Assembly (NCBI GenBank): GCA_030447385.1
Contig: JAUJOY010000001.1
Coordinates: forward strand, 528,565 to 592,564
Source of the DNA: Mycobacteriales bacterium
GTDB taxonomy: Bacteria > Actinomycetota > Actinomycetes > Mycobacteriales > SCTD01
Reading direction: 5' to 3'
Length of the DNA stretch: 64,000 bases
In this document: in pieces, positions 12,394-39,828 of the stretch
How the letters are laid out: every line of letters starts with the position of its first letter
How positions within the stretch are numbered: position 1 is the first letter of the stretch
Program-made: the position numbers and the translations under genes
The notes under the pieces: generated by a model
The model's database searches: none
Seen by the model: the letters and a program-made list of their open reading frames with translations, nothing else
What the model was told of the DNA's origin: nothing

Positions 12394-14241
12394 ATGCTCC
12401 AGCGGGTGTCGCGCGCGCACTGGCTGCGGACGGCGCAGGTCGCCGTAGATCTGAGCGCGTGGACGCTGGGGCTGACTCTGGCGCACGCCTTGCGCTACGA
12501 CCTGGTGCTGGAGCGGATCTCTCTGTCCGGGGCGGCCTGGGCCACACTGAGCGTGGGTGTGCTGCAGGTCGCCTTCGGGTTCCTCGGCCACCTCTACCGC
12601 GGGCGCTACCGCTACGGCTCGTTCGACGAGGTGCTGGGAGTGCTGCTCGCGGCGGCTTGCGCCGCGGTCGGCCTGGCGGTGCTGAACGAGGCGGTGCCCT
12701 CGACGCAGTGGACGCCTCGGTCGGTGCCGTTCATCGGGGCCTTCATCGCGTTCACCTTCATGCTGGGGGTGCGCTACCTATGGCGGATGCACCGGGAGAG
12801 CGAGCGACGGGGGCTCGGCCGTAGAGCCGGCGAAGCGGCCACGCCGCTGCTGCTCTTCGGAGCCGGCGAGGGTGCGGATCAGGCGCTGGTGGCCATGCTG
12901 CACGACTCGACCAGCCGCTACCTTCCGGTGGGTCTGATCGACGACGACCCCGCAAAGAGCAACCTGCGGCTTCGCGGCGTGAAGGTCTTGGGCACCCGCC
13001 AGGACCTTCCGCGGGTTGCTGCGCTGACCGGAGCCGAGTCGCTGCTGCTGGCGGTGCCCAGCGCCGACGGGGCCCTCGTGCGGGAGGTCAGCGCCCTGGC
13101 GCAGGCGGCCGGGCTGACCGTCAAGGTCCTGCCCACCGTCGACAGCCTGATGGACGGACGAGTCGGGGTCGAGGACATCCGAGACCTGGACCTGGCCGAC
13201 CTGCTCGGCCGCCGACAGATCGAGCTCGACCTCGACAGCATCGCGGGATACCTGACCGGCAAGCGGGTTCTGGTCACCGGAGCCGGCGGCTCGATCGGCT
13301 CGGAGCTGAGCCGGCAGATCGCGCTGTACGGGCCGAGCGAGCTCATCCTGCTCGATCGCGACGAGTCGGCACTGCACGCCGTCCAGCTGTCGATCACCGG
13401 TCGGGCCCTGCTCGATGGGGAGGACCTGGTCCTCGGCGACATACGCGATCTCGACCACATGCACCGGATCTTCCAGCAGCGGCGACCGCAGGTCGTGTTC
13501 CACGCCGCTGCCCTCAAGCACCTCACGCTGCTGGAGCGCTTCCCTGGCGAGGCGGTGAAGAGCAACGTCTGGGGCACCCTGACCGTCCTGGAGGCTGCCC
13601 GCGAGGCGGGCGTCGAGCACTTCGTGAACATCTCGACCGACAAGGCGGCCGATCCGACAAGCGTTCTCGGCTACTCCAAGCGGATTGCCGAGCGGCTCAC
13701 CGCCGAGGTCGCCACCCGAAGCGACGGGATCTTCGTGTCGGTGCGCTTCGGCAACGTGCTGGGCAGCCGCGGGTCGGTGCTCACGTCCTTCACCGCCCAG
13801 ATCGCGGCGGGCGGTCCGGTGACCGTGACGCACCCTGACGTGACCCGCTTCTTCATGACCGTCCAGGAGGCCGTGCAGCTGGTGATCCAGGCGGCTGCGG
13901 TCGGCAATGACGGGGAGGTCCTCGTGCTCGACATGGGGGAGCCGGTTCGCATCGACGACGTCGCCCGTCGGCTGGTCGACCAGTCCGCCCGCACGGTGGA
14001 GATCGTCTACACCGGTCTACGGCAGGGTGAGAAGCTGCACGAGGACCTGCTCGGGGCGGGTGAGCCCGACCTGCGGCCGAACCACCCACTCATCTCGCAG
14101 GTGGTGGTCAAGGCACTGGCGCCCGCGGAGGCGCTGGCCCTGGACCCATGGGAGCCACCTGAGGCGGTCATCACCGCTCTGCGCAGATGGTGCTGCGGTG
14201 CCGCGGCCAGTCTGGACGAGCAGGCCCCGCTCAGCCGCTGA
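12394..14241 (+). CDS. CapD/FlaA1-like membrane nucleotide-sugar 4,6-dehydratase
   Basis: A 615-residue enzyme with four N-terminal membrane helices (residues ~15-135), a linking CoA-binding-like Rossmann region (LLLFGAGEGADQAL) and a C-terminal SDR domain from ~residue 285: GAGGSIGSELSRQI (NAD site), HAAALKHLTLLE, NISTDKAADPTSVLGYSK. These are hallmarks of the UDP-GlcNAc C4,6-dehydratase/C5-epimerase group that starts FucNAc, QuiNAc or bacillosamine-type sugars. The position of the classical catalytic Tyr (YxxxK) is Leu here (L-G-Y-S-K), as the membrane-type enzymes replace it by Met or other residues. The product sugar cannot be fixed from sequence. The 3' end overlaps the convergent wecB-like gene. 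Confidence 0.85.
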   Translation: MLQRVSRAHWLRTAQVAVDLSAWTLGLTLAHALRYDLVLERISLSGAAWATLSVGVLQVAFGFLGHLYRGRYRYGSFDEVLGVLLAAACAAVGLAVLNEAVPSTQWTPRSVPFIGAFIAFTFMLGVRYLWRMHRESERRGLGRRAGEAATPLLLFGAGEGADQALVAMLHDSTSRYLPVGLIDDDPAKSNLRLRGVKVLGTRQDLPRVAALTGAESLLLAVPSADGALVREVSALAQAAGLTVKVLPTVDSLMDGRVGVEDIRDLDLADLLGRRQIELDLDSIAGYLTGKRVLVTGAGGSIGSELSRQIALYGPSELILLDRDESALHAVQLSITGRALLDGEDLVLGDIRDLDHMHRIFQQRRPQVVFHAAALKHLTLLERFPGEAVKSNVWGTLTVLEAAREAGVEHFVNISTDKAADPTSVLGYSKRIAERLTAEVATRSDGIFVSVRFGNVLGSRGSVLTSFTAQIAAGGPVTVTHPDVTRFFMTVQEAVQLVIQAAAVGNDGEVLVLDMGEPVRIDDVARRLVDQSARTVEIVYTGLRQGEKLHEDLLGAGEPDLRPNHPLISQVVVKALAPAEALALDPWEPPEAVITALRRWCCGAAASLDEQAPLSR

Positions 14242-15331
14242 GCGAGGTCGGCCGTAGCCGACCTCCGGGGGACGGGGTAGTCAGCACGTCGGCGATCCGC
14301 TCGGCCGCCTTGCCGTCCCAGAGGGCGGGGCGACGTGGTGAGGGCGGACAGGCCAGCGTCTCGAGCGCCGCGCGAACGACGTCCGGCGGGTGCGTCCCGA
14401 CGACCCGGTTCGTGCCCTCGGTCACCGTGATGGGCCGCTCGGTGTTGTCGCGCAACGTCAGGCACGGCACGCCCAGCACCGTCGTCTCCTCCTGGACCCC
14501 GCCCGAGTCGGTCAGCACCAGCCGGGCGCGCGCCTGCAGCGCGAGGAAGTCGAGGTAGCCGGCCGGCTCCACGGGCAGTAGCCCGTCCGGCAGATGCTCC
14601 GCCAGCCTCGACCGGGTGCGCGGGTGGACCGGGAAGATGATCGGCAGCTGCGCCGTGACCGCACCCAGCGCCTCCAGCAGGGCAGCGAGCTGTGCCGGGT
14701 CGTCCACAGTCGCGGGCCGGTGCAGCGTGAGCAGCCCGTAGTCCCCGCTCGTCAGGCCCAGCCGGCCAGCCGGATCGCGTTCACGGGCGCGCGGAAGGTT
14801 GGCCATCAGCGTGTCGACCATGACGTTGCCGACCAGGTGCACCTGATCCTCGCGATAGCCCTCGCCCCGCAGGTTGTCCACCGCATCGGGTGAGGGAGCG
14901 AGCAGGTAGTCGCTGACCCGGTCGGTGACGACGCGGTTGACCTCCTCCGGCATCGACCAGTCACGGCTGCGCAGGCCCGCCTCCACGTGCGCGACGAGAG
15001 ATCCCCCTTTGGCAGCCACCAGCGCACAGGCCATGGTGCCGTTGACATCACCGACCACGACCACGGCGTCTGGCCGAATTGCCTCTACCAGCGGCTCGAA
15101 GGCCTCCATGGTGCGAGCTGCTTGAAGCGCATGACTGCCGGAGCCGACGGCGAGGTAGTGGTCCGGTGCACGGATTCCCAGCTCGTCGAAGAAGACGTCG
15201 TTCATGACCCGGTCGTAGTGCTGCCCGGTGTGGACCAGCACCACCTCGGCACCGGCCGCCTCGAGCGCGTCCATGACCGGCTTGACCTTCATGTAGTTCG
15301 GCCGCGCTCCGGCGACGCAGACGGCACGCAT
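14231..15331 (-). CDS. wecB: UDP-N-acetylglucosamine 2-epimerase (non-hydrolysing)
   Basis: This 366-residue cytosolic enzyme interconverts UDP-GlcNAc and UDP-ManNAc. Family motifs are AGARPNYMKVKPV at the N-terminus, LVHTGQHYD, VVGDVNGTMA, VEAGLRSRDWSMPEEVNR, LTLHRPATVDD and LTDSGGVQEETTVLGVPCLTLR. The start was set at the ATG 15331, because the family begins directly with the AGARPN strand. Together with the WecC-type dehydrogenase at the other end of the locus (38578-39828), it gives UDP-ManNAcA. It is divergent from the transferase at 15385. Confidence 0.9.
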   Translation of the reverse strand: MRAVCVAGARPNYMKVKPVMDALEAAGAEVVLVHTGQHYDRVMNDVFFDELGIRAPDHYLAVGSGSHALQAARTMEAFEPLVEAIRPDAVVVVGDVNGTMACALVAAKGGSLVAHVEAGLRSRDWSMPEEVNRVVTDRVSDYLLAPSPDAVDNLRGEGYREDQVHLVGNVMVDTLMANLPRARERDPAGRLGLTSGDYGLLTLHRPATVDDPAQLAALLEALGAVTAQLPIIFPVHPRTRSRLAEHLPDGLLPVEPAGYLDFLALQARARLVLTDSGGVQEETTVLGVPCLTLRDNTERPITVTEGTNRVVGTHPPDVVRAALETLACPPSPRRPALWDGKAAERIADVLTTPSPGGRLRPTSLSG

Positions 15332-15384
15332 GGGGGGCAGTATGGGCGCAACTGCTCCACCCCCGTCCCCTGTGAGGCAGGTCT

Positions 15385-16347
15385 GTGTTCCCGGCGGCGG
15401 CATCGGCGTTCCTCGTCAGCCTCGCCCTGCAGCCACTGGTCATCGCGGTCCTGCGGCGCAGGGGGGTGCTCGACAACCCCTCGCAGCGCTCGTCCCACAC
15501 CGTGGCGACGGTGCGTGGCGGGGGCGTGGCCGTCGTTGCGGGCCTCCTCGCCGGCTCGGTGACCCTGGGGGCGTCGTCCACCGCGCTGGCGTTGCTGGCG
15601 GGCACGCTGCTTGCCGGGGCGGTGGGTCTGGTCGAGGACCTGCGCGGCGTGCCGGTCCTGGCTCGGCTGCTGCTCCTGATCGGGGCGGCTCTGCCGGTAG
15701 CCCTCCTGGCGGGGAACCGCCTGCACGCGGCGGCCGGAGTTCTCGTGCTGCTCTACGTCGTCGCGGTGGTCAACGCCACGAACTTCATGGACGGCATCAA
15801 CGGCATCTCGGCCGCGCAGGGGCTCGCCGGGGGCGCCGCCTTCGCCGTGATGGGCCACGTGCTCGACGAGCCCGTTCTTGCCGGATTCGCCGCCGCGGTG
15901 GCGGCGGCGACGCTGGCCTTCGCGCCGTACAACGTCCCGCGGGCCAGGGTCTTCCTCGGTGACTGCGGCAGCTATGCCCTCGGTGCGGCGCTGGCCGGGC
16001 TGTCGGTCCTCACCTGGGTGGCCGGTGCGCCCCTCGAGGCAGCCGTGGCTCCGCTCATGCTCTACCTCGCGGACACCGGGAGCACGCTGCTGCGCCGGTA
16101 CCGCAACGGTGAGGTCTGGCACCAGCCGCACCGCACCCACGTCTACCAGCGCCTGACCGACCTTGGCTGGAGCCACACTCGCGTCAGCGGCCTGGTGCTC
16201 GCGCTGATCTCCCTATGCTCTCTGCTCGGTGCGGCCTCGGCAGGCAGTGTGCCGCTGCGCGTCGCCGGCGACCTGGGCCTGGCGGCTGTCCTCTCCGGCT
16301 ACCTGGCCCTGCCACGACTGCTCCGGGAGAGAAGGCTCACCGCGTGA
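15385..16347 (+). CDS. WecA/MraY-family polyprenyl-phosphate sugar-1-phosphate transferase
   Basis: A 320-residue integral membrane protein, about ten helices, that starts a lipid-linked repeat unit by moving a HexNAc-1-phosphate to undecaprenyl phosphate. Motifs are LDNPSQRSSHT, LVEDLRG (usually DD), NATNFMDGINGI, FLGDCGSYALG and HRTHVYQRL. These identify the glycosyltransferase-4 (WbpL/WecA) type rather than MraY of cell-wall synthesis. A GTG start. The stop overlaps the next GTG (GTGA at 16344), opening a five-gene coupled operon to 22151. This is probably the priming enzyme of the locus. Confidence 0.9.
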   Translation: MFPAAASAFLVSLALQPLVIAVLRRRGVLDNPSQRSSHTVATVRGGGVAVVAGLLAGSVTLGASSTALALLAGTLLAGAVGLVEDLRGVPVLARLLLLIGAALPVALLAGNRLHAAAGVLVLLYVVAVVNATNFMDGINGISAAQGLAGGAAFAVMGHVLDEPVLAGFAAAVAAATLAFAPYNVPRARVFLGDCGSYALGAALAGLSVLTWVAGAPLEAAVAPLMLYLADTGSTLLRRYRNGEVWHQPHRTHVYQRLTDLGWSHTRVSGLVLALISLCSLLGAASAGSVPLRVAGDLGLAAVLSGYLALPRLLRERRLTA

Positions 16348-17570
16348 CGAAGGTCCTGCTCGTCACGCACTACTTCCCCCCGGAGGTCGGGGCGCCGCAG
16401 GCCCGGCTCTCCGAGATGGCCCAGGCCTGGGCCGGAGCGGGCGCTGAGGTGACGGTGCTCACCGGCATGCCCAACCACCCGACCGGCGTCCTGCTGCCCG
16501 CCTACCGCGGGACCGTTCTGCGCCGGGAGAAGCGCGACGGCTACCGGGTGGTCCGGACGTGGCTGTACGCCACGCCCAACGAGGGGATCGTCAAGAAGAC
16601 CCTCGGCCACCTGTCCTTCATGGTGACCTCGGTCCTGCTGGGCGTCTGGCAGACCGGCCGGCCGGAGGTCGTCGTCGTCTCCTCCCCGACGTTCTTCTCC
16701 ATCGGCTCGGCCTGGCTGATCGCCCGGCTCCGGCGGGCCCGTCTCGTGGTCGAGGTCCGCGACCTGTGGCCGGCGATCTTCGTCGAGCTCGGGGTGCTGA
16801 AGAACTCGACCCTGATCGGCATCCTCGAGCGCTTGGAGCTGGCGGCCTACGCCGCAGCCGACGCGGTCGTCGTCGTCTCCGAGGGGTTCCGGGAGAACCT
16901 CGTGAGCCGCGGCGTCCCCGGGAGCAAGGTGCACACCATCCGCAACGGTGTCGACCTCCAGCGGTTCCCGAAGGACGGCTCCCCCGATCCCGACGTCCGG
17001 CAGCGACTCGGAGCGGGGCCGAAGGACCTGCTGGTGCTCTATCTGGGTGCCCACGGCATCTCGCAGGGACTGCCGGCGGTCGTCGAGGCCGCTGCGCTGG
17101 TGCAGGACGAGCCCCTGCACTTCGCCTTCGTGGGGGAGGGAGCCGACAAGAAGCGGCTGCAGCAAACGGTGGAGCGACTGGGCGTCACGAACTGCACCCT
17201 GCACCCCGCGGTGGCGCGCGCGCAGGTGCCGCAGCTGCTGGCTTCTGCCGACATCTGCCTTGTCCCGCTCCGGAACGTCCCGCTGTTCTCCACCTTCATC
17301 CCGTCGAAGATCTTCGAGTACCTCGCGGCGGAGAAGGCCGTCGTCGGGTCGGTACGCGGCGAGCCGGGGCGCATCCTCGCGGAGTCCGGGGCCCTGGTCG
17401 TCGAACCGGAGCAACCCGTCGAGCTGGCAGTCGCACTGCGCGCGTTGGCGCAGGACGCGGATCGTCGGCGGGACATGGGATCGAGAGGTCGCCGTTATGT
17501 GGCAGCGCACTTCGACCGCAAGGAGCTGGCCGCGCGCTACCTGGACCTGTTGAAGCGGCTCGTGCGATGA
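16344..17570 (+). CDS. GT4-family glycosyltransferase (WbuB-like)
   Basis: A 408-residue two-domain (GT-B) enzyme adding a sugar to the lipid-linked intermediate. Motifs are the N-terminal LLVTHYFPPEVGAPQARLSEM, EVRDLWPAIFVELG, TIRNGVDLQRFP at the linker, YLGAHGISQGLP and the donor-site FIPSKIFEYLAAEKAVV. The text is closest to WbuB/FucNAc-transferase-type enzymes. A GTG start overlaps the preceding stop, and the ATGA overlap with the next gene shows strong coupling. Directly following the priming transferase, it is a good candidate for the second sugar. Confidence 0.85.
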   Translation: MTKVLLVTHYFPPEVGAPQARLSEMAQAWAGAGAEVTVLTGMPNHPTGVLLPAYRGTVLRREKRDGYRVVRTWLYATPNEGIVKKTLGHLSFMVTSVLLGVWQTGRPEVVVVSSPTFFSIGSAWLIARLRRARLVVEVRDLWPAIFVELGVLKNSTLIGILERLELAAYAAADAVVVVSEGFRENLVSRGVPGSKVHTIRNGVDLQRFPKDGSPDPDVRQRLGAGPKDLLVLYLGAHGISQGLPAVVEAAALVQDEPLHFAFVGEGADKKRLQQTVERLGVTNCTLHPAVARAQVPQLLASADICLVPLRNVPLFSTFIPSKIFEYLAAEKAVVGSVRGEPGRILAESGALVVEPEQPVELAVALRALAQDADRRRDMGSRGRRYVAAHFDRKELAARYLDLLKRLVR

Positions 17571-18436
17571 GGTTGCTCGTCACTGGGGGCAGCGGCTTCA
17601 CCGGTCGGCACCTGGTGCGCGCAGCCCTGGACGCGGGCAAGGAGGTGTGCGCCGTTGTCCGCTCGGTGGAGGCCGCGCGGACGGTGGAGGCACTCGGGGC
17701 GAGCGCTGTGCCCGGGGACCTCGACGATCCCGCGAGTCTGGACGCTGCGTTCGCGACGCCGGCCGACGCGTTGATCAACATCGCCAGTCTTGGCTTCGGA
17801 CACGCACCTGCCATCGTGGCGGCGGCAGAGGACGCGGGTCTTCGGCGGGCGGTCTTCGTCTCGACAACCGCGGTCACCACTGCCCTGCCGGCCGCCAGCA
17901 AGCGGGTCCGGCTGGCGGCTGAGGAGACCGTCCGGCAGAGCGCGCTCGACTGGACGATCCTGCGGCCCACGATGATCTACGGGGCACCGGGCGACCGGAA
18001 CCTGTGCCGGCTCCTGCAGCTCCTGAAGCGCACACCTGTCCTGCCGCTGCCCGGTGGCGGCCGCCGCCTGCAGCAGCCGGTGCACGTCGAGGACCTCGCG
18101 GCCGCACTGCTGGCCGCGGTGGGCACCGAACACGCCATCAGCCGCACCTACGTCATCGCCGGTCCTACCGCCCAGCCGTTCCGGGATCTGGTGCTCCACG
18201 CCGGCAACGCCGTAGGCCGCCTCCCCCGGCTGGTCAGCGTCCCGCTGCGGCCGACGATCGCGCTGCTGCGCCTTTACGAACAAGTGGCTCCGCGGCCCCG
18301 CATCAAGGCCGAACAGCTCGAGCGGCTGGCCGAGGACAAGGCCTTCTCCATCGAGGCGGCCGAGCGTGATCTCGGCTACGCGCCGAGGTCGTTTCTCGAA
18401 GGCATCACGGCCGAGGCCGCGGCCCTGAGCCGTTGA
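17567..18436 (+). CDS. Atypical SDR / NAD(P)-binding epimerase-like protein
   Basis: A 289-residue Rossmann protein: LLVTGGSGFTGRHLVRAAL at the N-terminus, AVPGDLDDPASL, VFVSTTAVTT, LDWTILRPTMIYGAPGD and a PVHVEDLAAALLAAV segment. The classical YxxxK pair is missing: the region reads TALPAASKRVRLAAEE, typical of atypical SDRs. Reductase/epimerase activity on a nucleotide or lipid-linked sugar is likely but unproven. It starts within ATGA of the glycosyltransferase stop and ends in a TTGA overlap with the heparinase-like gene. Confidence 0.8.
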   Translation: MRLLVTGGSGFTGRHLVRAALDAGKEVCAVVRSVEAARTVEALGASAVPGDLDDPASLDAAFATPADALINIASLGFGHAPAIVAAAEDAGLRRAVFVSTTAVTTALPAASKRVRLAAEETVRQSALDWTILRPTMIYGAPGDRNLCRLLQLLKRTPVLPLPGGGRRLQQPVHVEDLAAALLAAVGTEHAISRTYVIAGPTAQPFRDLVLHAGNAVGRLPRLVSVPLRPTIALLRLYEQVAPRPRIKAEQLERLAEDKAFSIEAAERDLGYAPRSFLEGITAEAAALSR

Positions 18437-20040
18437 CGACGGACATGGGCCGGTGGGTGCTGACCGCCCGCACGGTGCGGCACCTCCGCCCGGAGCAGCT
18501 GGCCCACCGCGTGCGCCTGCACGTGCAGCGCCGCGTGGTGCAGGCGGCGCCGGGGGTGGTGGAGGCAGGGCTACGGCGGAGGCAGCCGACCGCGTCCGGC
18601 TGGCCGGACGGCTTCATGCCGATAGACGGACGAGTGCCGGCTGCCTGCTCGATCGAGGAGCTCGACGCCGGCCGGTTCACCCTGCTGGGCCAGAGCCGGA
18701 CCGTCGAGGACTGGCGCTCGACGGCTCCCCCGCAGCTGTGGCGCTACCACCTGCACTACTGGGACTGGGCGTGGGCGCTCGCGCAGCACCCGGACCGGCT
18801 GCGGGCCCGCGCGGTGTTCCGGCGGCTGTTCCGGCAGTGGCAGGAGCAGACCCGGTTCGGCCATTGGGACGAGTGGTCGCCCTACGTCGCCGCCGTGCGG
18901 GCTTGGTCCTGGTGTGGCCAGTACGACGCGCTGGTGCGCGGCTCGGACCTCGACGGGGAGTTCGTCGCCCTGCTGGGCGTCCACGCCGGCTACCTCCGCG
19001 CACATCTGGAGCTCGACGTCGGCGGCAACCACCTGATCAAGGACCTGAAGGGTCTCGTCGGCCTGGCGCTCCTCCTGGGGGACCACCGGCTGCTGGCCCG
19101 GATTCTGTGGCGGCTGCGCCAGCACGTGGCCCGGCAGATCCTCGACGACGGTGGGCACGTCGAGCGGGCGCCCGCGTACCACTGCCAGGTGCTCACGGAC
19201 CTCGTGGACCTCGACGGCCTGCTGGGTGAGAGCAGCCCCGTGTGGCTGGCCGAGGCCGTTGCGCGGATGCGGGTCTGGTTGGGACTGGTGCTGCTGCCGG
19301 ACGGGTCGGTCCCGCTGCTCAACGACGGCTTCCCGATCCCGACTGCTCTCGTCGATGCCCTGCGGCCGGGTCCCGCGGCGCCTGACGGACTGACGTTGCT
19401 GGCTGATACGGGACTGGCGGTCCTGCGGCGCGGCCAAGCCCACGTGCTCGCCGACGTAGGGCTGCCCTGCCCGGACGACCTGCCGGCGCACGCTCACGCC
19501 GACACCTTCGGCTTCCTGCTGCACGTCGGTACGAAGTGCCTGGTCTCGGAGGTCGGCACGTCGACGTATGCAGCTGGCGACGTCCGGGCCTTCGAGAGGT
19601 CCACGGCTGCACACAGCACCGTGCAGGTGGATGACGCGGACTCCACCGAGGTGTGGGGTGCCTTCCGGGCGGCGCGGCGGGCCCGGCCGACGGTCCTGCG
19701 AGCGGACGACGACGGCACGTCGATCACCCTGAGCGCCGCGCACGACGGCTACCGGCGGCTTCAGGGGCGGCCGGTCCACCGGCGCACGTGGCTCCTCACG
19801 GCGGACCGCCTGCGGGTGGCAGACGAGGTCCTCGGCGCAGGTGAGCACGACCTGACGGCCCGGCTGCACGGGACCCCTCTCGACGCGGTGCTCTCGCCGT
19901 CCGTGGACTGGGACCACGAGGAGGTGCTGGCTGCACAGGGCTGGGAGGACCGGGTGCCGGCACCTGCCCTCGTGCACCGTGAGCGTGCGAGGCTGCCGTG
20001 GCGCTTCGAGGTGGAGCTGTCGACGAGAGGGAGTTCGTGA
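18433..20040 (+). CDS. Heparinase II/III-like (alginate lyase family) protein
   Basis: A 535-residue protein started by TTG within TTGA. The N-terminal half is an (alpha/alpha) toroid-like region (YHLHYWDWAWALAQ, GNHLIKDLKGLVGLALLL, ERAPAYHCQVLTDLVDL). The C-terminal half is a heparinase II/III beta sandwich (AHAHADTFGFLLHV, EVGTSTYAAGDVRAFERST, AAHSTVQVDDADSTEVWGAF). Such proteins cleave uronic-acid-containing glycans by beta-elimination. No signal peptide is seen, which is common for the versions placed in exopolysaccharide operons. It is coupled to the fused oxidoreductase gene that follows. Substrate may be the locus polymer containing ManNAcA-type residues (inference). Confidence 0.85.
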   Translation: MTTDMGRWVLTARTVRHLRPEQLAHRVRLHVQRRVVQAAPGVVEAGLRRRQPTASGWPDGFMPIDGRVPAACSIEELDAGRFTLLGQSRTVEDWRSTAPPQLWRYHLHYWDWAWALAQHPDRLRARAVFRRLFRQWQEQTRFGHWDEWSPYVAAVRAWSWCGQYDALVRGSDLDGEFVALLGVHAGYLRAHLELDVGGNHLIKDLKGLVGLALLLGDHRLLARILWRLRQHVARQILDDGGHVERAPAYHCQVLTDLVDLDGLLGESSPVWLAEAVARMRVWLGLVLLPDGSVPLLNDGFPIPTALVDALRPGPAAPDGLTLLADTGLAVLRRGQAHVLADVGLPCPDDLPAHAHADTFGFLLHVGTKCLVSEVGTSTYAAGDVRAFERSTAAHSTVQVDDADSTEVWGAFRAARRARPTVLRADDDGTSITLSAAHDGYRRLQGRPVHRRTWLLTADRLRVADEVLGAGEHDLTARLHGTPLDAVLSPSVDWDHEEVLAAQGWEDRVPAPALVHRERARLPWRFEVELSTRGSS

Positions 20041-22151
20041 AGCAGGTCGTCCAGCCCATCGGCGGCGGGGCCGTGGAGGTGCTGGATGTGCCACGCCCGA
20101 CGATCGGGGCAACCGAAGTCCTCGTCCGGACCCTGGCCAGCGTCATCTCCCCGGGGACCGAACGCGCCGTCACCTCGCTGGCGCAGTCGTCGCTGCTCAG
20201 CAAGGCGCGGGCGCGTCCTGATCTTGTCCGGCAGGTCGTGAAGAAGGCTCGGAACGAGGGCCTGAGCTCCACGATGCAGACCGTCCGGGCGAGGCTGGCC
20301 TCGGACCTGCCGTTGGGCTACTCGGCCGCCGGGATCGCCATGGAGGTCGGTCAGGCCGTCGCCGGCATCCGGCCCGGCCAGCTGGTCGCCACCGGCGGTG
20401 CGGGCCAGGCCAATCATGCCGAGTGGCAGGCAGTTCCCGGTCTTCTGTGCGCAGCCGTGCCGGAGGGGGTGACGCCGCAGGACGCGGCGTTCACGACGAT
20501 CGCCTCGATCGCCCTGCATGGTCTTCGCCTGGCCGAGGTCGGCCCCGGGTCGAAGGTGGTGGTGATCGGCCTCGGCCTGGTAGGGCAGCTGTCCGCGCGG
20601 CTGGCCATGGCATCGGGGTGCGACGTCGTCGGCATCGACGTATCTGCTGGGCCGCTGCGTGTCGCTGCCGAGTCTGGCGTGCTGGCCTTGGAGGAGAAGG
20701 GCCAGGCCACGACTGAGGCCGTCCTCGCCTGGTCACGCGGTAGGGGGGCCGACGCGGTCCTGCTTTGCGCCGCCGGCTCGTCATCCACGGTCGCTCAGCG
20801 CACGCCCGCGCTCTGTCGGGACCGTGCCCGGGTCGTCGTCGTGGGAGACGTGGGTCTGGAGCTGTCCCGGACGCCCTTCTACGAGAAGGAGCTGACTTTG
20901 CTGTTCGCCCGCTCCTACGGCCCGGGCCGCTACGAGCGGGAGTACGAGGAGTACGGCGTCGACTACCCGGCGGGGCAGGTCCGCTGGACGGAGGGCCGCA
21001 ACTTCGAGGCTGTGCTGGACCTGATCGCGTCGGGGCGTCTGCAGGTTGCGGACCTGGTCACGCACACCTTCCCGATCGCCGGGGCGACGGGCGCGTACGA
21101 GCTCATCGAGTCCCGCCGCGAGCCCTACCTCGCCATCGCCCTGACCTACCCGGAGACCCAGCCGGACCGCGAGCCGCCGCTGCTGGTTACCCCACCCCGC
21201 GCGTCGTCGTCTCCTGGTGTCGGCTGGATCGGTGCCGGCGGCTACTCCACGGGCGTCCTGCTGCCAGCTTTCGCTGCAGCCGGGTTCGACCGGCTGGTGG
21301 CCGTGGCTTCCGCGAGTGGCCTTTCGGCGCGGCGAGTTGCCGATCGAGCTGGCTTCGAGAAGGCGCTCAGCTCGGCCGACGAGGTGATCGCGGACCCGGA
21401 CGTCGAGGTCGTCGTCATCGCGACACCTCACGACACCCACGCGGACTACACGGTGCGCGCGCTGCAGGCGGGCAAGCACGTCTGGTGCGAGAAGCCGCTC
21501 GCCCTGTCGATGGAGGAGCTGAACCGGGTCGAGGCCGCGTGGCGGGAGAGCGGCTGCGTCCTCATGGTGGGGCACAACCGCCGGTGGGCGCCGCACGTCC
21601 TGGCTGTCGCCGAGCAGCTGCGGGGTCCGGCAGTGGTGACCTACCGGGTGAGCGCTGGGCCGGTGCCGGCGAGGCACTGGTACGCAGACCGACGGCAGGG
21701 AGGACGCCTCCTTGGGGAGGTGTGCCACTTCGTCGACACGTGTGCGGCTCTGGTCCGATCGGAGGTCGTCGACGTGCGTGCTCTCGCTGGCCCGGGGGGC
21801 GAGCAGCTGCTGGCAGAGGACATGGTGCTGGCGCTGCGTCACGCGAACGGGTCGCTGTCGACCATCAGCTACGCGAGTGGTGGCAGTGCAGGGACGCGAA
21901 AGGAACGGGTCGAGGTGTTCGGGATGGGGCACACGTGGATGCTGGACGACTTCCGGACGGCGGAGCGGGACGGCAAGGAGCTGTCGCCCTCCGGTCGGCA
22001 GGACAAGGGGCAGGGCGCTGCGGTGCGGCACTTCCGACAGGCGCTGGACGGTACCCCCGCGCCGACGGTGGCACTGCTCGCCACGACGCGCGCGGTCCTG
22101 TCGGCGGGTGCGGCGATGACCTCTCAGGCCGGCAGCGCGATCGTCATGTAG
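20037..22151 (+). CDS. Bi-domain oxidoreductase: MDR dehydrogenase fused to Gfo/Idh/MocA
   Basis: A 704-residue fusion. Residues ~1-385 form a medium-chain (zinc-type) alcohol-dehydrogenase-like domain (ISPGTERAV, GYSAAGIAMEVG, VVVIGLGLVGQLSARLA). Residues ~395-704 form a Gfo/Idh/MocA dehydrogenase (VGWIGAGGYSTGVLLPAF, VVIATPHDTHADYTVRALQAGKHVWCEKPLAL). Both halves keep their nucleotide-binding GxGxxG, so the protein may run two linked redox steps on one sugar. It starts with GTGA overlap to the heparinase-like gene; this pairing is recurrent in bacterial polysaccharide loci. It ends convergent with the FkbM gene, overlapping 28 bases. Confidence 0.85.
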   Translation: MKQVVQPIGGGAVEVLDVPRPTIGATEVLVRTLASVISPGTERAVTSLAQSSLLSKARARPDLVRQVVKKARNEGLSSTMQTVRARLASDLPLGYSAAGIAMEVGQAVAGIRPGQLVATGGAGQANHAEWQAVPGLLCAAVPEGVTPQDAAFTTIASIALHGLRLAEVGPGSKVVVIGLGLVGQLSARLAMASGCDVVGIDVSAGPLRVAAESGVLALEEKGQATTEAVLAWSRGRGADAVLLCAAGSSSTVAQRTPALCRDRARVVVVGDVGLELSRTPFYEKELTLLFARSYGPGRYEREYEEYGVDYPAGQVRWTEGRNFEAVLDLIASGRLQVADLVTHTFPIAGATGAYELIESRREPYLAIALTYPETQPDREPPLLVTPPRASSSPGVGWIGAGGYSTGVLLPAFAAAGFDRLVAVASASGLSARRVADRAGFEKALSSADEVIADPDVEVVVIATPHDTHADYTVRALQAGKHVWCEKPLALSMEELNRVEAAWRESGCVLMVGHNRRWAPHVLAVAEQLRGPAVVTYRVSAGPVPARHWYADRRQGGRLLGEVCHFVDTCAALVRSEVVDVRALAGPGGEQLLAEDMVLALRHANGSLSTISYASGGSAGTRKERVEVFGMGHTWMLDDFRTAERDGKELSPSGRQDKGQGAAVRHFRQALDGTPAPTVALLATTRAVLSAGAAMTSQAGSAIVM

Positions 22152-22885
22152 GGGGGAGTGGCCAGGGGCATGCCATAGGACGGTCGCTCGCCATCGTAGA
22201 ACGAGTATCCGTGCTGCTGTAGCAACCTCTGGACGACCGGGGCGTTCTCCTGGGCAACCTCGCACACGATGCGGGGCCGCAGCGCGAGAACCTTCGCCGC
22301 ACCGGCAAGTACGAGTGCCTCGGCGCCCTCCACGTCGATCTTCAGGACGTCCGGTGGGGCGAAGTGCTCGAGAAGGAGGTCGAGGGTGACCGTCGGGACC
22401 GTCTGGGCCTCTCTGACACCGCCAGTCTGCGTCGAGCCGGTGGTGACGCCGAGGTAGTTGGTGGAGCGGCTGCGAACCGCGATGTTGAAGGTCGCCACCC
22501 CGATCCGGTCACTGGCCGCGGCGGGCAGGATCTGAACGGGTGCCCCGGGCTGCGCGAGTGAGGCAGAACGGCGTAGTAGACCGACGTTCCACGTGTCGGC
22601 CTCCACGGCGAGCACCGACCCCTGTGAACCCGCCCGCAGGGCCGCCGAGAAGGTGAACAGGCCCGCGTTTGCGCCCACATCCCAGACGTTGTCACCATCG
22701 TGGACGAGACGCTCCACGGCACGAAGCAGGTCCGGGTCGACCGCCCGCAGGCGTGGCTTGAGATAGCGCAGGCCAGACTCCGAGGACACGTAGATGCGGA
22801 CCGCCTCGTACGGAGGTGGGAGACGCCGACGAAGCACGAGACGATGAGTGGCCTTCTCTGCGGCCGCTCGCCAGTTGAGGCTCAT
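22124..22885 (-). CDS. FkbM-family methyltransferase (copy 1)
   Basis: A 253-residue SAM-dependent O-methyltransferase. SAM-site motif VWDVGANAGLFTFSAAL (residues ~65-82), acidic EAD at strand 2 end (VLAVEADTWN), and the family mark LKIDVEGAEALVLAGA (~190-205). FkbM enzymes in glycan loci usually methylate sugar hydroxyls. Its start overlaps the stop of the upstream asparagine synthase-like gene (4-base overlap at 22882-22885), forming a minus-strand run 22124-28240. Confidence 0.85.
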   Translation of the reverse strand: MSLNWRAAAEKATHRLVLRRRLPPPYEAVRIYVSSESGLRYLKPRLRAVDPDLLRAVERLVHDGDNVWDVGANAGLFTFSAALRAGSQGSVLAVEADTWNVGLLRRSASLAQPGAPVQILPAAASDRIGVATFNIAVRSRSTNYLGVTTGSTQTGGVREAQTVPTVTLDLLLEHFAPPDVLKIDVEGAEALVLAGAAKVLALRPRIVCEVAQENAPVVQRLLQQHGYSFYDGERPSYGMPLATPPYMTIALPA

Positions 22886-24660
22886 GTTCGCTGCTGGACC
22901 TCCCGCTTGAGGTGAGCATCGAGGACTTGCCGGGCTCGAGCGAAGTAGCTGCCCTGCCGGTGACCGCGTTGTCCAGGGGCGTGATCACCCCGGTGCACCA
23001 GGCGCGCCGGCGCAGCGAAGCCACGCTTGGGGCGGTGAGCCAGTAGCTTCCCGAGCTCCTGCTCGGCCAGTGCCTTGGTCAGCCACTTCCCGCGGCCTCG
23101 GCGGACCAGCGCGTGGTCTGGCAACGCGCGGGACCAGGTCACGAGGTCGAGGTCCAGCCAGGGGACCCGGATCTCGACGCCGAACTCCATGCCTGCCCGG
23201 TCGGCGTATGCGAGTCCCAGACCTGGGAGATAGACCTCCTGGTCGACAGCGATCACCTTGCGCAGGAAGGACGCGCGTTCGGGCTGCCGCTCGTAAGCCA
23301 GCCGGTGCTGGGACCACACCACCTCGTTCGTGACCTCGGCCTCGGTGCAGCCGAGGGCGACTGCCCGCTCACGCGCGGTCGAATAGCTGCACAGGTGCAT
23401 GTATGCCGAGAAGGGATCGCGCTCGGTCATCGCCCGGCTGAGGCGGCCGGCGTACTCGACTCCGACGCGACCGTTAGCCGCTCTGGCCAGACCGCGCTCT
23501 AGAACTCGTCCAGCGTGACCCAGCTGCACGCGTTCGAGGGCGCCAGCAACGACGTGTCGTCGGTAGCCGCCGAAGACCTCGTCGCCACCCTGGCCGGCAA
23601 GGAGGACCTTGCATCCGTCGGCCCGGGCAGCACGGGCGATCTCCCTGGTGAGCTCGTATGCCGGATCGGCGAACAGGTCACCACTCGGGGGGAGGAGCAC
23701 CGGCTCGGCCTCCTCCCCTGGCACGTAGGTCGTCGGCGTGCCGAACCGCTGCTCGAGCTGCCGGACGGCGCTGGCGTCCTCCGCCAGTCCCTCGGTGCCC
23801 GTCTCCTGCCCCCACTCGATCGTGTACGCGCGGGTCAGCCCTTCACCAGCCGCCCACCAGAGCAGGCTGCTGTCGACGCCACCCGACGCCATGAGGCCGA
23901 CCGGCACGTCCGACAGCAGCTGCCGCTGACTGGCGGAGCGCACGTGCTGCCGTACCTCCTCGAGCAGTCCGCGGCCCGGCGGGGCGCTCCCGGACGTCGC
24001 GTAGCTGACCGCATCGCGCGTGATCTCCCCGTCTCGCCACACCAGGACCTCCCCCGGAAGCAGGCTCGTCACGCCGAGGTGCGGCGTGCGGGGTTGGGGG
24101 ATCCAGAGGAAGGTCAGGAACTGCGCGAGGCCGATCGTGTCGGGCGCACCCACGGGCGCACCCATGCGGTCGAGGGCTTTGATCTCGGACGCGAACCACA
24201 GCCGCTGCCCGTCCTGCGTGATGAAGAGCGGTTTGACGCCGAGTGGGTCACGTGCGAGCACCACCTCACCAGCGGCGGTGTCCACCACTGCGAGCGCATA
24301 GATGCCGTTCAGCCGGTCCAGTGCGCCAACACCCTCACGCGCCCACAGGTGCAGGACCACCTCACCGTCCATGTCACTGCGGAACACGTCCCCGCGCGCC
24401 TCGCACTCGCGGCGGAGCTCCGGGTAGTTGTAGATCTCCCCGTTGTAGACCAGCACCAGCCGCCCGTTGTGGCTCACGAAGGGCTGTTCCCCGTTGGCGG
24501 ACAGGTCCTGGATGGCCAGCCGCTCATGCACCAGATCAGCGGTGGCGTTGCCGACCGAGACAACCAGGCGGCCACGCGAGTCCGGCCCCCGGTGCTGCAG
24601 GCAGGGGTCCGGAACGGGCGATCCGGCAGCGGCCCCGATCAGCCCGGCTAGCCCGCACAC
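22882..24660 (-). CDS. Asparagine synthase-like glutamine amidotransferase (copy 1, intact)
   Basis: A 592-residue enzyme. The GTG at 24660 is chosen as start because it puts the glutaminase nucleophile Cys at position 2 (MCGLAGLIGA). Class II GATase features are HRGPDSRGR and YNGEIYNYPELR. The synthetase domain holds the PPi loop MASGGVDSSLLWW and LLAGQGGDEVFGGY. In polysaccharide loci such enzymes amidate uronic acids (WbpS-type) rather than make asparagine; this role is inferred from context. It precedes FkbM copy 1 by a 4-base overlap and follows the methyltransferase at 24674. Confidence 0.85.
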   Translation of the reverse strand: MCGLAGLIGAAAGSPVPDPCLQHRGPDSRGRLVVSVGNATADLVHERLAIQDLSANGEQPFVSHNGRLVLVYNGEIYNYPELRRECEARGDVFRSDMDGEVVLHLWAREGVGALDRLNGIYALAVVDTAAGEVVLARDPLGVKPLFITQDGQRLWFASEIKALDRMGAPVGAPDTIGLAQFLTFLWIPQPRTPHLGVTSLLPGEVLVWRDGEITRDAVSYATSGSAPPGRGLLEEVRQHVRSASQRQLLSDVPVGLMASGGVDSSLLWWAAGEGLTRAYTIEWGQETGTEGLAEDASAVRQLEQRFGTPTTYVPGEEAEPVLLPPSGDLFADPAYELTREIARAARADGCKVLLAGQGGDEVFGGYRRHVVAGALERVQLGHAGRVLERGLARAANGRVGVEYAGRLSRAMTERDPFSAYMHLCSYSTARERAVALGCTEAEVTNEVVWSQHRLAYERQPERASFLRKVIAVDQEVYLPGLGLAYADRAGMEFGVEIRVPWLDLDLVTWSRALPDHALVRRGRGKWLTKALAEQELGKLLAHRPKRGFAAPARLVHRGDHAPGQRGHRQGSYFARARQVLDAHLKREVQQRT

Positions 24661-24673
24661 AGGGCGAGGACCC

Positions 24674-25411
24674 TCACCGCTTGACGCCCTCGACAACCAG
24701 GAACCAGCCGAACCGGTTGCCCGTGCAACGGGCCAGGCCGGGCGCCACCCGTCGGTCCCAGTGGGTGAGGACAGGGCGCACCCTCAGCTGCTGGAGGTGC
24801 GGCCTCAGCAGAAGCTCGAGCTCCCTCTGAATGTAGGCCCGGGTGCCTGGGCTCTCGACGTGCCCGACCGCGTCGTTCAGGCTCGTGCACGGCTTTCCGC
24901 GCAGCAGCCCCCACCGCACCCACGCGGCCGCGGCCAACCACGACCTCCGGTGGTAGACCATCACCGCAAAGCGTCCGCCCGGCTTCACGACCCGTGCCGC
25001 CTCGATCAGAGCACGGTCCGAGTCCGGAGTGTGGTGCAGGACACCCCACGACCAGACGACGTCGAAGGCGCCGGAGACGAAGGGCAGGTGCTCCGCGTCT
25101 GCTCGCAGGACAGCGCCGTGCAGCCCTTCCGCCTCCAGCCGCTGCCGGCTCAGCTCGACCGCTCGGGAGGTGAGGTCGACTCCGGTGACGTTGCCGCCTG
25201 CACGGGCCCACCGCACGAGGTCTGCGCCCATACCGACTCCGATCTCGAGGACCTGCTGGCCCCCTCCGGTGTCGAACTGCGCGACGCGCAGGATCTCGGG
25301 CTCCAACTGATAGCGGACCTCGTCCTGCTGCGCCCCGTAGCGTTCGCCGCACGCCTCCCGCTCCCAGAAGTCCGCCACGGACTGCTTGGCTGGAAGCATG
25401 GGCGGTGTCAT
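24674..25411 (-). CDS. Class I SAM-dependent methyltransferase
   Basis: A 245-residue enzyme with SAM-binding motif VLEIGVGMGADLVRWARAG (residues ~52-70), motif II GVDLTSRAVELSRQRLE and post-motif segments FDVVWSWGVLHHTPDSD and VKPGGRFAVMVYHR. The start is set at the ATG 25411 (MTPPMLPAK); a second in-frame ATG 12 bases later is possible. Substrate unknown, probably a sugar or lipid-linked glycan of this locus. It lies between the intact and the broken asparagine synthase-like genes. Confidence 0.8.
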   Translation of the reverse strand: MTPPMLPAKQSVADFWEREACGERYGAQQDEVRYQLEPEILRVAQFDTGGGQQVLEIGVGMGADLVRWARAGGNVTGVDLTSRAVELSRQRLEAEGLHGAVLRADAEHLPFVSGAFDVVWSWGVLHHTPDSDRALIEAARVVKPGGRFAVMVYHRRSWLAAAAWVRWGLLRGKPCTSLNDAVGHVESPGTRAYIQRELELLLRPHLQQLRVRPVLTHWDRRVAPGLARCTGNRFGWFLVVEGVKR

Positions 25412-25446
25412 GGCGCGGCCCACGCTAGCCGAAGTGCGGTGACGGC

Positions 25447-27218
25447 TCAGGCCAGCGACCGGAGCCACTGGTCGAGCACCACGAGAGCCCAGGCGTGCGA
25501 CCAGGGCGACCGTCCGTGCTGCCACCCGTCGACGACGCAACGACCGGTGGCCGGTTCTACGTGCTCCCACACGGGCGCCTCCGGACGACTCACCAGCTGC
25601 AGTGCATCGCGGAGCAACCCCCGGCGCATCCAGTCGTCGATGGGCAGACTGAAGCCCTGTTTCGGCATCGATGCCAGTTCGACGAGCCGATCGTCCCCGA
25701 GCCCGCGCGAAATGGCCCTTGCCGAGCCCGGCCACGCCACCAGCGCCAACTGCGGCACCGAGGAAGGGCCGGTCGACCAAGGGCACGCGCAGCTCCACCG
25801 ACGAGGCCATCGAGAAGGCGTCGGCGTCCGGAAGCAGGGTGCTCTGCAGGTACAGCCGGTACTCGGCGGCCGTCAGGGCAGCCGAGTCCAACCGCCCGAT
25901 CCCGACGGGCGCCTCCTGCACGAGGTCAGCGTCGTCGGCCAGACCGAGCCCTCGGACGACGAGGTCGCGCGACCACACTTGCCGCTGCAGCAGGCTCAGG
26001 TCCCAGGCATCCCGCGGCCCACCGCTCCCGAGCATCTCGTGCGCTTTGGCGGGAAGGCGGCTGCGTCCAGCCCGGCCGCCCAGACTGATGGCTCTCCGGA
26101 CTGGTGCCACGCGGCTCGCCGCGGCGAGGCCGCGGAGATAGCGCAGGTACCTGAAGTGGGAGTATCCCCCGGTCGCCTCGTCCCCGCCCAGACCTGACAG
26201 GGCGACCTTGAAGCCGGCCGCCTGCACCGCCCGGCACACGACAAAGGTGTTCAGGCCGTCGAGACTCGGTCGTTGCATCGCGCGGAAGAAGTCGTGGACG
26301 TCGCCGGGGCTCGGCGTCCGCCTCACCACCTCATGGGAGTGGCCGAACCGCGGCTGTTCTGGCGGCCTCCGTTGCCTCCTCGCTTTCCCCCCAGGTCGAC
26401 GGTCAGGCAGTGCAGCTGCTGCCCGGCCTCGCGGGGGCCCCAGGCCAAGGCGCTCGAGTCGAGACCGCTGGAGAGCAGCAGCGCAGTCGGGACGTCGCTG
26501 CGCAAGTGGAGCGAGACGCTCTCCCGCAGCTCCCTGGCGACGGCTCGGGACAGGCCTTGCGCAACCTCGAGGCCCGGCTCGACAGGACCTTGATCGACCA
26601 GATCCGCGCCCCGAAAGGCCAGCCACGTGTTGGGCGGAACCGCGCTGATCTCCTTGAAGGGGCTTCCGCCGGTGCTGAGCGATCCCAGGTGGAGGAAGCG
26701 GGCGATCGCGGCTGGGTCAACGCAGTCCCCGGTGCGCCTGAGCGGCCGCACCTCGGAGGAGGCGATCAGCTCGTCGCCTGTCCGCCTCCAGTAGAGCGGC
26801 TTGATGCCAAGCGGATCGCGTACAAGGACCAGGAGACCACGCTCGAGATCGGCGAGAACGATGGCGAACATGCCCCGCAGGAGGCGGAAGGCATCGGTGC
26901 CGAAGCGGCTGTAGAGCTGCGGGATGACGGCGCCGTCGCTCCCGCCGGGACCCAAACCGTGCTCGCGGATCAGCTCGCGGTAGTTGTACACCTCGCCGTT
27001 GAAGACCGCCGTACATGATCCGTCAGGTGCGTGAGAGGCTGATCGCCCGCCGCCCCGGGGGTGATGATTGCCAGTCTGGTGTTGCCCAGGCATGAGGCGC
27101 CCGCGATCGCGGAGAAGGCTCCGTCAGGTCCGCGGTGGCGCTGTGCGGCGTTGATCCTGGACACCGTGCGTCGCGCATGGTCAGGGGATGCTGCCGTGCT
27201 GGCACATACCCCGCACAC
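25447..27218 (-). pseudogene. Asparagine synthase-like amidotransferase (copy 2, broken)
   Basis: The start GTG (27218) puts Cys at position 2 (MCGVCASTA). Recognisable parts in order are HRGPDGAF, VFNGEVYNYRELI, DPLGIKPLYW, the altered PPi loop LLLSSGLDSSALA (Ser replaces the first Gly of SGGxDS), GHSHEVV, VALSGLGGDEATGGY, SSVELRVPLVDRPFLG and LASMPKQGFSLPI. The reading frame changes near 27030, 26372, 26350 and 25700, so four indels separate the pieces. The remnant covers the whole ~590-residue length, so decay is recent. Its function probably matched copy 1; losing it could change the amidation of the polymer. Confidence 0.8.
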
Positions 27219-29266: not shown

Positions 29267-29325
29267 CAGATCTCGGCTTCGGCCCTTGGGACGAAGGCCA
29301 ACTCCCGCAAGGGGGAAGTGTGCCG

Positions 29326-30189: not shown

Positions 30190-30195
30190 GAACCG

Positions 30196-31263: not shown

Positions 31264-31321
31264 CCGCATCATCCTCCGCCCGCAGGTGCTGCCGCATGGT
31301 CCGTCATCCCCAACTCGACCT

Positions 31322-32860: not shown

Positions 32861-32963
32861 GGTCGGTCCCCATTCTCGGAAGGAGGGCAAGTTCGCAGAT
32901 CAGCGTCGAGGCGACGGGCGGATGTGGGCCCGGCGCGGCCGCGGCTCCGGAGGGGATGTTTCG

Positions 32964-38577: not shown

Positions 38578-39828
<1,251 letters not shown>

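Follow-up and report, generated by a model that had tools for sequence, protein, structure and literature searches.

What does an enzyme with a heparinase fold do inside a locus that appears to build a polysaccharide? The question is raised by a 64,000-nucleotide stretch of the 3.4 Mb genome of a Mycobacteriales bacterium (assembly GCA_030447385.1, contig JAUJOY010000001.1, positions 528,565 to 592,564; the whole stretch is referred to as the window). It encodes, as neighbours on the + strand, a heparinase II/III-fold enzyme (18433-20040; PF07940, PF16889), in the following called the lyase after its family, and a fused oxidoreductase (20037-22151; PF00107, PF01408), in the following called the fusion, which joins a medium-chain dehydrogenase/reductase (MDR) to a Gfo/Idh/MocA oxidoreductase. 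We found that both belong to a recurring gene set, fusion-(WecB)-lyase-GT4, which is present in several bacterial phyla and on one archaeal contig and which more likely reshapes an acidic sugar during coat assembly than degrades one. Both protein families have already been named; a literature search based on titles and openings, with subscription papers mostly outside its reach, returned no description of the gene set and no described function for either the 'alginate lyase family' or the 'bi-domain-containing oxidoreductase', the latter name occurring in one paper of the listing. Within the literature searched, the module of fusion, lyase, GT4 and WecB and its biosynthetic role are the new part.

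A gene set recurring across lyase loci

Loci were sampled using an alignment of four lyases as the query, and the best 80 of at least 506 confirmed ones (at least 587 stretches) were analyzed, a sample which is biased towards the window protein. Their sources include Proteobacteria, Actinomycetota, Bacteroidota, Nitrospira, Planctomycetes and one Woesearchaeota contig, and the nearest named homologues among these best 80 are metagenome-assembled genomes of Actinomycetota. The lyase was mapped in 79 of the 80 loci (L042 was missed). Many contigs are short, and the gene labels are BLAST matches to few reference proteins, with glycosyltransferase family 4 (GT4) being a broad label. On the 79 mapped loci, we detected GT4 in 73, the fusion in 59 and WecB in 46 cases, as well as a sugar-nucleotide dehydrogenase (16), a short-chain dehydrogenase/reductase (SDR; 13) and the asparagine-synthase-like AsnB (13). 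Where the contig extends 9 kb or more to both sides of the lyase (29 loci), the fusion and GT4 are present in 28 cases each, WecB in 22, the dehydrogenase in nine and SDR and AsnB in six each; fusion and GT4 each lie within 3 kb of the lyase and on the same strand in 27 of them. GT4 is usually located downstream of the lyase (60/73) and the fusion upstream (53/59), while the gene order differs in the window and its actinobacterial relatives. Among lyase loci bearing AsnB, 16/17 also encode the fusion.

An unfiltered distance-matrix test on the common 33 loci gave correlation coefficients (r) of 0.40 for lyase-GT4, 0.37 for lyase-fusion and 0.37 for lyase-WecB, with no pair standing out. A previous claim of lyase-GT4 co-evolution, obtained by using only GT4s above 250 bits (r = 0.83, or 0.67 without L012-L020), was dropped after this test.

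Some loci showed additional features. Two lyase-family genes are present in L025, L028, L040, L053 and L055; according to a rough map, in L025, L028, L053 and L055 an unlabelled gene (400-426 aa) and a GT4 (558-567 aa) come after the second one (474-678 aa). In the Nitrospira loci L044, L045, L066 and L079, fusion-lyase-GT4 comes after a gene (label h2) whose product is homologous to a hypothetical protein from Sphingobium.

Co-occurrence of lyase and fusion in genomes

The linkage was also assessed in two even draws, comprising 369 genomes from the class of G054 (the genome of L036, a Thiosymbion record) and 376 genomes from the window's phylum, with thresholds of E ≤ 1e-10 for the lyase and E ≤ 1e-60 for the fusion. 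In the class draw, 41 genomes encode the lyase, 31 the fusion and 21 both; the phylum draw yielded 16, 30 and nine, respectively. Seed genomes present in the draws include G272, G296 and G283, which are the genomes of L075, L086 and L050, and, in the window's phylum, G481, which carries the coordinates of L012. With the six seed genomes of the class draw removed, the lyase is present in 35, the fusion in 27 and both in 17 of 363 genomes, where 2.6 are expected (Fisher p = 4e-13). Without the seeds G000 and G481, the phylum draw retains 14 lyase and 28 fusion genomes and seven with both among 374, against an expectation of 1.05 (p = 1.5e-5). With the seeds left in, the p values are 1.6e-14 and 2e-6 for class and phylum, respectively.

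The two genes are frequently close neighbours. In the class draw, the lyase is found no more than 6 kb away on the same contig in 18/31 fusion genomes (14/27 without seeds), and either the lyase or any PF07940 gene lies within 11 kb in 22/31 (18/27). The corresponding counts for the phylum are 8/30 and, within 11 kb, 16/30 (6/28 and 14/28 without the two seeds); five genomes with partial fusion matches fell outside this PF07940 neighbourhood search. Viewed from the other side, 13/21 genomes of the class draw with a strong lyase match have the fusion within 6 kb (9/15 without seeds). Of 17 strong-lyase loci from this draw, two of which (L120, L133) were already in the first set as L075 and L086, ten bear the fusion and four (L122, L130, L131, L134) carry none of the marker genes. 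The coupling of lyase and fusion proposed in the initial annotation of this DNA is therefore borne out, as both co-occur beyond chance in either draw and are neighbours on the same contig.

The lyase-fold protein

In RefSeq, homologues of the lyase are named 'alginate lyase family protein' or 'heparinase II/III family protein', and its Pfam scores are 149.4 bits for PF07940 (cutoff 24; E 1.6e-43) and 23.7 bits for PF16889 (cutoff 22; E 3.5e-5). The predicted model (pLDDT 91.9) adopts an (alpha/alpha) barrel combined with an antiparallel beta-sheet fold. Structure comparison revealed heparinase III with Z scores of 29.4-30.4 over 456-464 residues, and human dermatan-sulfate C5-epimerase 1 (DS-epi1, 6hzn) with a Z score of 17.8 and a root-mean-square deviation of 4.3 over 450 aligned residues. 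While the single sequence returned a chance haemoglobin match alone from the PDB, a profile search aligned the catalytic motifs with heparinase III (5jmd, E 5e-31), which shares the Asn-His, Tyr-His, His and Tyr positions and has Gln in place of His355. Within the family, these residues are almost invariant: N199 and H200 are conserved in 79/80 lyases (the exception, L081, is a cut sequence), and Y249, H353, H355, Y379 and H394 in 80/80. H200, Y249 and Y379 appear to occupy the motifs of His205, Tyr261 and Tyr473 of DS-epi1, a mapping by motif and literature to a set that is shared by lyases.

According to the available text of PMC11848413, lyases of families PL12, PL15, PL17, PL21, PL33 and PL39 and DS-epi1 have a common fold and most of the catalytic set. 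The authors of a study on DS-epi1 propose a His/Tyr/Tyr triad and consider that minute changes may turn a lyase into an epimerase (PMC8006597, available part). Since fold and catalytic residues are common to lyases and a C5-epimerase, the residues found here fit both activities and decide neither. The earlier term 'lyase' hence stands as a designation of fold and family, whereas as an activity it is one option only.

The same annotation had placed the lyase in the cytosol, for which a signal peptide in homologues would be the critical observation. No signal-like N-terminus was found in any of the 80 lyases with a simple hydropathy scan, which is no trained predictor (mean ≥ 1.6 over 15 residues, covering T14 with 13 residues on its N-terminal and 45 on its C-terminal side). 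T14, L18, Q22 and R26 form the conserved face of an N-terminal helix. A secreted degradative lyase was rejected as the principal explanation, given that the scan showed no export signal in these 80 proteins and that the neighbours are biosynthetic.

A distant heparinase-family protein of Sphingobium (L005:14234-15946) is encoded beside a fusion, and its HAHAD motif reads PSQSD, suggesting that it is possibly inactive or altered.

The fused oxidoreductase

The fusion consists of an MDR half (residues ~1-372) and a Gfo/Idh/MocA half (~393-704; PF01408 E 3.8e-26). It is known in RefSeq, including the plasmid records, as 'bi-domain-containing oxidoreductase' and shows 37-42% identity to members from Parabacteroides, Streptomyces and Sphingobium. 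The two complete nucleotide-binding domains recognized initially were found again, based on PF00107 and PF01408, the motifs GLGLVG (178-183) and GAGGYS (399-404) and a predicted model with a pLDDT of 88.5, in which a conserved MDR loop (~294-318) is of low confidence. Among the 50 PDB matches listed, the TM-score to the query does not exceed 0.41 and none covers both halves well.

In an alignment of 60 fusions, the Gfo half retains the Lys of its EKP motif (K486, 60/60) and a downstream His (H564, 59/60), and the MDR half retains H127 (60/60) as well as S38, G40, T41 and E42 (59 each). No ADH_N match was listed for the MDR half. In the alignment, it reads S-x-GTE and G-Y at the presumed zinc-motif columns, where Cys and GHE are usual in zinc-containing MDRs.

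A possible origin of the fusion as phage cargo was rejected: the fusion matched PHROGs only through a generic alcohol dehydrogenase, and the lyase had no match there.

Uronic acid supply and loci without the fusion

Four annotated loci allowed us to ask what remains when the fusion is absent; a tblastn search with four fusions revealed none in the fetched stretches. An Escherichia coli IncC plasmid, a Citrobacter plasmid and the chromosome of E. coli AR_0077 encode wecB, wecC, other glycosyltransferases and the lyase, with GT4 directly after it; in AR_0077, galF and gnd flank this locus, and O-antigen genes of the O8/O9 type lie next to it. A Sulfitobacter plasmid carries wecB, lyase, GT4 and a sugar-nucleotide dehydrogenase. 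Because of these four loci, the lyase, GT4 and a supply of an N-acetylhexosaminuronic acid (HexNAcA) of the N-acetylmannosaminuronic acid (ManNAcA) type look like the minimal unit, with the fusion as an addition. The GT4s of the fusion-less loci L003, L138 and L006 have the WcaI-like NF007640 as their best profile, below its cutoff.

Within E. coli, DNA of the lyase matched in 9/5,426 genomes, in five of them over at least 80% of its length. The wecB-wecC-lyase-GT4 clusters of L003 and L139 reside on Enterobacteriaceae plasmids and have insertion sequences near both ends (IS26; ISKpn26 and ISEc33).

A survey of the neighbourhoods for co-occurrence with WecC, as initially suggested, supports this type of supply. 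We scanned 18 dehydrogenases, namely that of the window, 16 from close-lyase loci and that of L135, a locus with a more distant lyase; L083 (partial) and L137 were excluded. The cutoff of NF008286 (UDP-ManNAc dehydrogenase) was exceeded by 14/18, five of which originate from Lysobacter or Luteimonas and are hence non-independent, and WecB accompanies the lyase on the 46 loci given above. At genome level, a WecB-family gene was present in 36/36 lyase genomes searched, but also in 11/14 control genomes.

The window locus

In the window, lyase and fusion are the last genes of a five-gene run on the + strand. It starts with a WecA/WbpL-like polyprenyl-phosphate HexNAc-1-phosphate transferase (15385-16347; PF00953 E 5.7e-28), which by its family would be the initiating enzyme, followed by a WcaI-like GT4 glycosyltransferase (16344-17570; PF13579/PF00534; NF007640 203 bits, under its cutoff of 276) and the SDR (17567-18436; PF13460/PF01370). 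The initial annotation had tied lyase and fusion to the SDR by a TTGA and a GTGA overlap. The coordinates agree: TTGA at 18433-18436 is common to the SDR stop and the TTG start of the lyase, and GTGA at 20037-20040 to the lyase stop and the GTG start of the fusion. The chain of 4-base overlaps begins earlier, at the PF00953 gene, with GTGA at 16344-16347 (PF00953 gene/GT4) and ATGA at 17567-17570 (GT4/SDR). The GTG start of the fusion is well supported by the purine-rich GAGAGGGAG just 5' of it and by homologues starting with MKQ, where the window protein has VKQ. The TTG start of the lyase at 18433 is less certain; an alternative ATG at 18445 (residue 5) would abolish the overlap. For GT4, the NF007640 match begins at residue 46 of a longer open reading frame (ORF), making GTG 16344 the likely start.

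Upstream lie genes for a WbpM-like UDP-HexNAc 4,6-dehydratase (12394-14241, +; PF02719 E 1.1e-97) and for WecB, the UDP-GlcNAc 2-epimerase (14231-15403, −; TIGR00236 284.2 bits, cutoff 210). A WecC/TviB-like UDP-sugar 6-dehydrogenase is encoded further away (38578-39828, −), scoring above the cutoff of TIGR03026 and reaching 244.5 bits with NF008286 (WecC; cutoff 459). AsnB (22882-24696, −; PF00733, PF13537) is an asparagine-synthase-like amidotransferase and a possible uronamide former. Further neighbours comprise a Wzz/tyrosine-kinase gene, FkbM methyltransferases, a flippase and glycosyltransferases. The dehydratase, WecB, Wzz/kinase, flippase, glycosyltransferase and dehydrogenase genes identify an exopolysaccharide locus, thus confirming the earlier placement of lyase and fusion in polysaccharide biosynthesis.

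When the window's own genome and 40 relatives were compared, the lyase was present in 1/41, namely its own genome, and parts of the fusion were matched in 41/41, the matches listed in the 40 relatives being single-domain. The locus thus has a scattered distribution, which is common for surface-polysaccharide loci.

Several ORFs on the − strand are worth recording. Three encode FkbM-type methyltransferases (22124-22885, 27305-28240, 32964-33851). An ORF of 650 aa (24674-26626), adjoining the complete AsnB, combines an asparagine-synthase-like part (PF00733) with a subsequent S-adenosylmethionine-dependent methyltransferase (PF08241). Three ORFs of 393-522 aa inside the locus (28514-29794, 29855-31036, 31322-32890) are without a Pfam match at 0.001; the second may be spurious, as it overlaps a glycosyltransferase ORF (30196-31338).

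A probable separate block for the SDR

It had been suggested that the set SDR-lyase-fusion recurs as such. This view did not hold: the SDR is present on only the 13 loci counted above, directly beside the lyase in eight (all actinobacterial records), and the fusion, GT4 and WecB recur more widely. Across 97 distinct mapped loci, 14 of them with the SDR, a PF00953 transferase is present in 9/14 SDR loci versus 10/83 others (p = 7e-5). The link to the fusion was not significant (12/14 vs 57/83, p = 0.16) and that to a WbpM-like dehydratase weak (5/14 vs 11/83, p = 0.05). As the SDR tracks the PF00953 transferase and not significantly the fusion, it was dismissed as a third partner in the chemistry. 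Based on the PF00953 association and on a WbpM-like gene, the SDR, PF00953 and WbpM-like genes of the window resemble the Pseudomonas aeruginosa WbpM/WbpV/WbpL set for N-acetylfucosamine (FucNAc) or N-acetylquinovosamine (QuiNAc). The SDR is therefore probably the 4-keto-reductase of a QuiNAc/FucNAc-type sugar and would belong to a separate deoxyaminosugar block.

Proposed role and rival explanations

We tentatively favour, with something short of even confidence, that the lyase is a cytoplasmic enzyme which inverts C5 of a lipid-linked HexNAcA (from the D-ManNAcA to the L-GulNAcA type, GulNAcA being N-acetylgulosaminuronic acid) and that the fusion adds a further redox change. The lyase-fold enzyme would act at the cytoplasmic membrane face during the assembly of a Wzx/Wzy-type exopolysaccharide repeat. 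Here, the PF00953 transferase would start the lipid-linked intermediate, WecB and the WecC-like dehydrogenase would supply UDP-ManNAcA or a relative, and GT4 would add the HexNAcA to the intermediate. The Tyr/Tyr/His set might then take the C5 proton and, upon reprotonation from the other face, an L-residue would result (L-GulNAcA from D-ManNAcA). Since the fusion carries two dehydrogenase halves on a single polypeptide, one of them may oxidise and the other reduce the same residue, pairing both half-reactions for a net inversion of C3 or C4. Substrate, C5 inversion, action on the lipid-linked sugar and the role of the fusion are what we infer. The earlier idea of uronate remodelling by the lyase and two redox steps is retained in part: the lyase-fusion linkage, the WecB and UDP-ManNAc dehydrogenase genes and the missing signal speak for it, while the SDR is not part of the scheme. 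The broader claim of a widespread and hitherto undescribed prokaryotic pathway, in which L-HexNAcA is made on cytoplasmic lipid-linked oligosaccharides by a DS-epimerase-like enzyme that pipelines annotate as a lyase, together with a two-dehydrogenase chain inverting a second centre by internal redox exchange, is rather doubtful.

Several observations weigh against C5 inversion. By sequence as well as by structure, heparinase III is the nearest relative, and this true lyase shares the aligned residues; 6hzn (DS-epi1) is absent from the 20 sequences listed when the lyase profile is compared with PDB chains up to E 10. The gene link is not strict: no lyase-family gene lies within 11 kb in 9/31 (class) and 14/30 (phylum) fusion genomes, and the fusion is missing within 6 kb in 8/21 strong-lyase genomes. 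The window's dehydrogenase, together with those of L012 and L032, falls below the NF008286 cutoff, and that of L135 is UDP-glucose-dehydrogenase-like. A solved glycan structure was found for none of the lyase-bearing loci. In favour of the inversion, L-GulNAcA itself occurs in the Vibrio cholerae polysaccharide (VPS), for which the authors propose a C5 inversion of D-ManNAcA by an enzyme left unnamed in the available part of the study (PMC3901696), and a review guesses that VpsB is the enzyme (PMC4432689, available part). As the vpsA-K cluster holds 11 genes in 11,464 nt (PMC7485978, available part), with little room, the presence of a 540-residue lyase-fold enzyme in it is doubtful. VpsJ, described in an available passage as of 'unknown function' (PMC5109742), was considered as a possible family member; the cluster size argues against this.

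The kinship to heparinase III, whose lyases share the Asn-His/Tyr/His set, would equally suit a true cytoplasmic lyase that cleaves a 4-linked sugar off uronate-containing lipid-linked intermediates, for quality control or for freeing stalled undecaprenyl carriers, with the fusion being incidental or acting on a nucleotide sugar. However, such editing leaves the link to GT4 and fusion across many phyla unexplained. Moreover, since the polymer is made outside the cytoplasm in Wzx/Wzy systems, a lyase in the cytoplasm would have the lipid-linked repeat of its own cell as substrate; eliminating a sugar from such an intermediate appears wasteful, and C5 inversion of the residue placed by GT4 would be a simpler use of the active site than lysis. 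We consider this explanation unlikely. A constructive variant of lysis makes the chemistry of the initial annotation explicit: elimination would yield a 4,5-unsaturated uronic residue, the Gfo half would oxidise the allylic 3-OH and the MDR half would reduce the enone C4=C5 to give a 4-deoxy uronic acid. It draws on the genetic linkage of lyase and fusion and on the quinone oxidoreductases among the PDB matches of the MDR half, and zinc-free MDRs frequently reduce C=C bonds. Yet a sugar would have to be added at O4 only to be lost again, the four annotated loci have lyase and GT4 but lack the fusion, and to our knowledge 4-deoxy-hexuronic acids are not usual repeat-unit sugars, so that we regard this scheme as quite improbable.

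The order of events could also be reversed, the fusion working on the nucleotide sugar (forming and reducing a 3-keto group of UDP-HexNAcA, as WbpB/WlbA-type enzymes do) and the lyase-fold protein then processing this rarer sugar after its transfer. The catalytic Lys and His retained in the Gfo half and the frequent position of WecB between fusion and lyase would be in line with this. The known WbpB route, however, includes a DegT-type aminotransferase, which is present on only 4/79 lyase loci and leaves that route incomplete; we consider this reversed order unlikely as well. Finally, the lyase might be catalytically dead and serve as a scaffold or glycan-binding subunit of GT4. A cytoplasmic site is odd for a lyase, and the HAHAD motif is missing from the distant homologue of Sphingobium in L005. 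Catalytic and metal-site residues are nevertheless kept across the close homologues (79/80 or 80/80, the cut sequence accounting for the difference), and we regard a scaffold as very unlikely.

If C5 inversion by the lyase is true, several consequences follow. L-configured aminouronic acids such as L-GulNAcA are found in bacterial matrix polysaccharides, and the available parts of PMC3901696 and PMC4432689 do not establish the C5-inverting enzyme for VPS of V. cholerae. The lyase family, with strong matches in 21/369 class genomes and linked to UDP-ManNAcA genes, would be a concrete candidate for such an inversion. Annotations as 'alginate lyase', which imply polysaccharide degradation, would be corrected, and a cytoplasmic biosynthetic member would join a fold that exported lyases and an animal epimerase are known to have.

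Comparison with known systems

The fusion does not differ in kind from the RefSeq 'bi-domain-containing oxidoreductase', with MDR and Gfo/Idh/MocA in one chain. At the level of the pathway, the vps system of V. cholerae is the nearest parallel considered here: its product needs C5 inversion of ManNAcA, the cluster contains the UDP-sugar dehydrogenase gene vpsB (PMC3901696, available part), and assembly follows a Wzx/Wzy scheme according to the available portion of PMC7485978, like that proposed for the window locus.

Heparinase III (PL12; 4mmh, 5jmd, 4fnv) resembles the lyase in the whole two-domain fold and, in 5jmd, in the aligned Asn-His, Tyr-His, His and Tyr residues. In contrast, identity amounts to 15-17%, and the lyase shows no visible export signal and has GT4, WecB and the fusion as biosynthetic neighbours. 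PL12 enzymes are exported and belong to degradation loci, which the signal-like N-termini (0/80) and the biosynthetic neighbours do not match. DS-epi1 (6hzn) has the same superfamily fold, with His/Tyr/Tyr at motifs that, judged from the literature, appear to correspond, but shares 11% identity with the lyase and is not matched by its sequence profile. While DS-epi1 acts on the polymer in the Golgi (PMC8006597, available part), the lyase is proposed to act on a cytoplasmic lipid-linked oligosaccharide.

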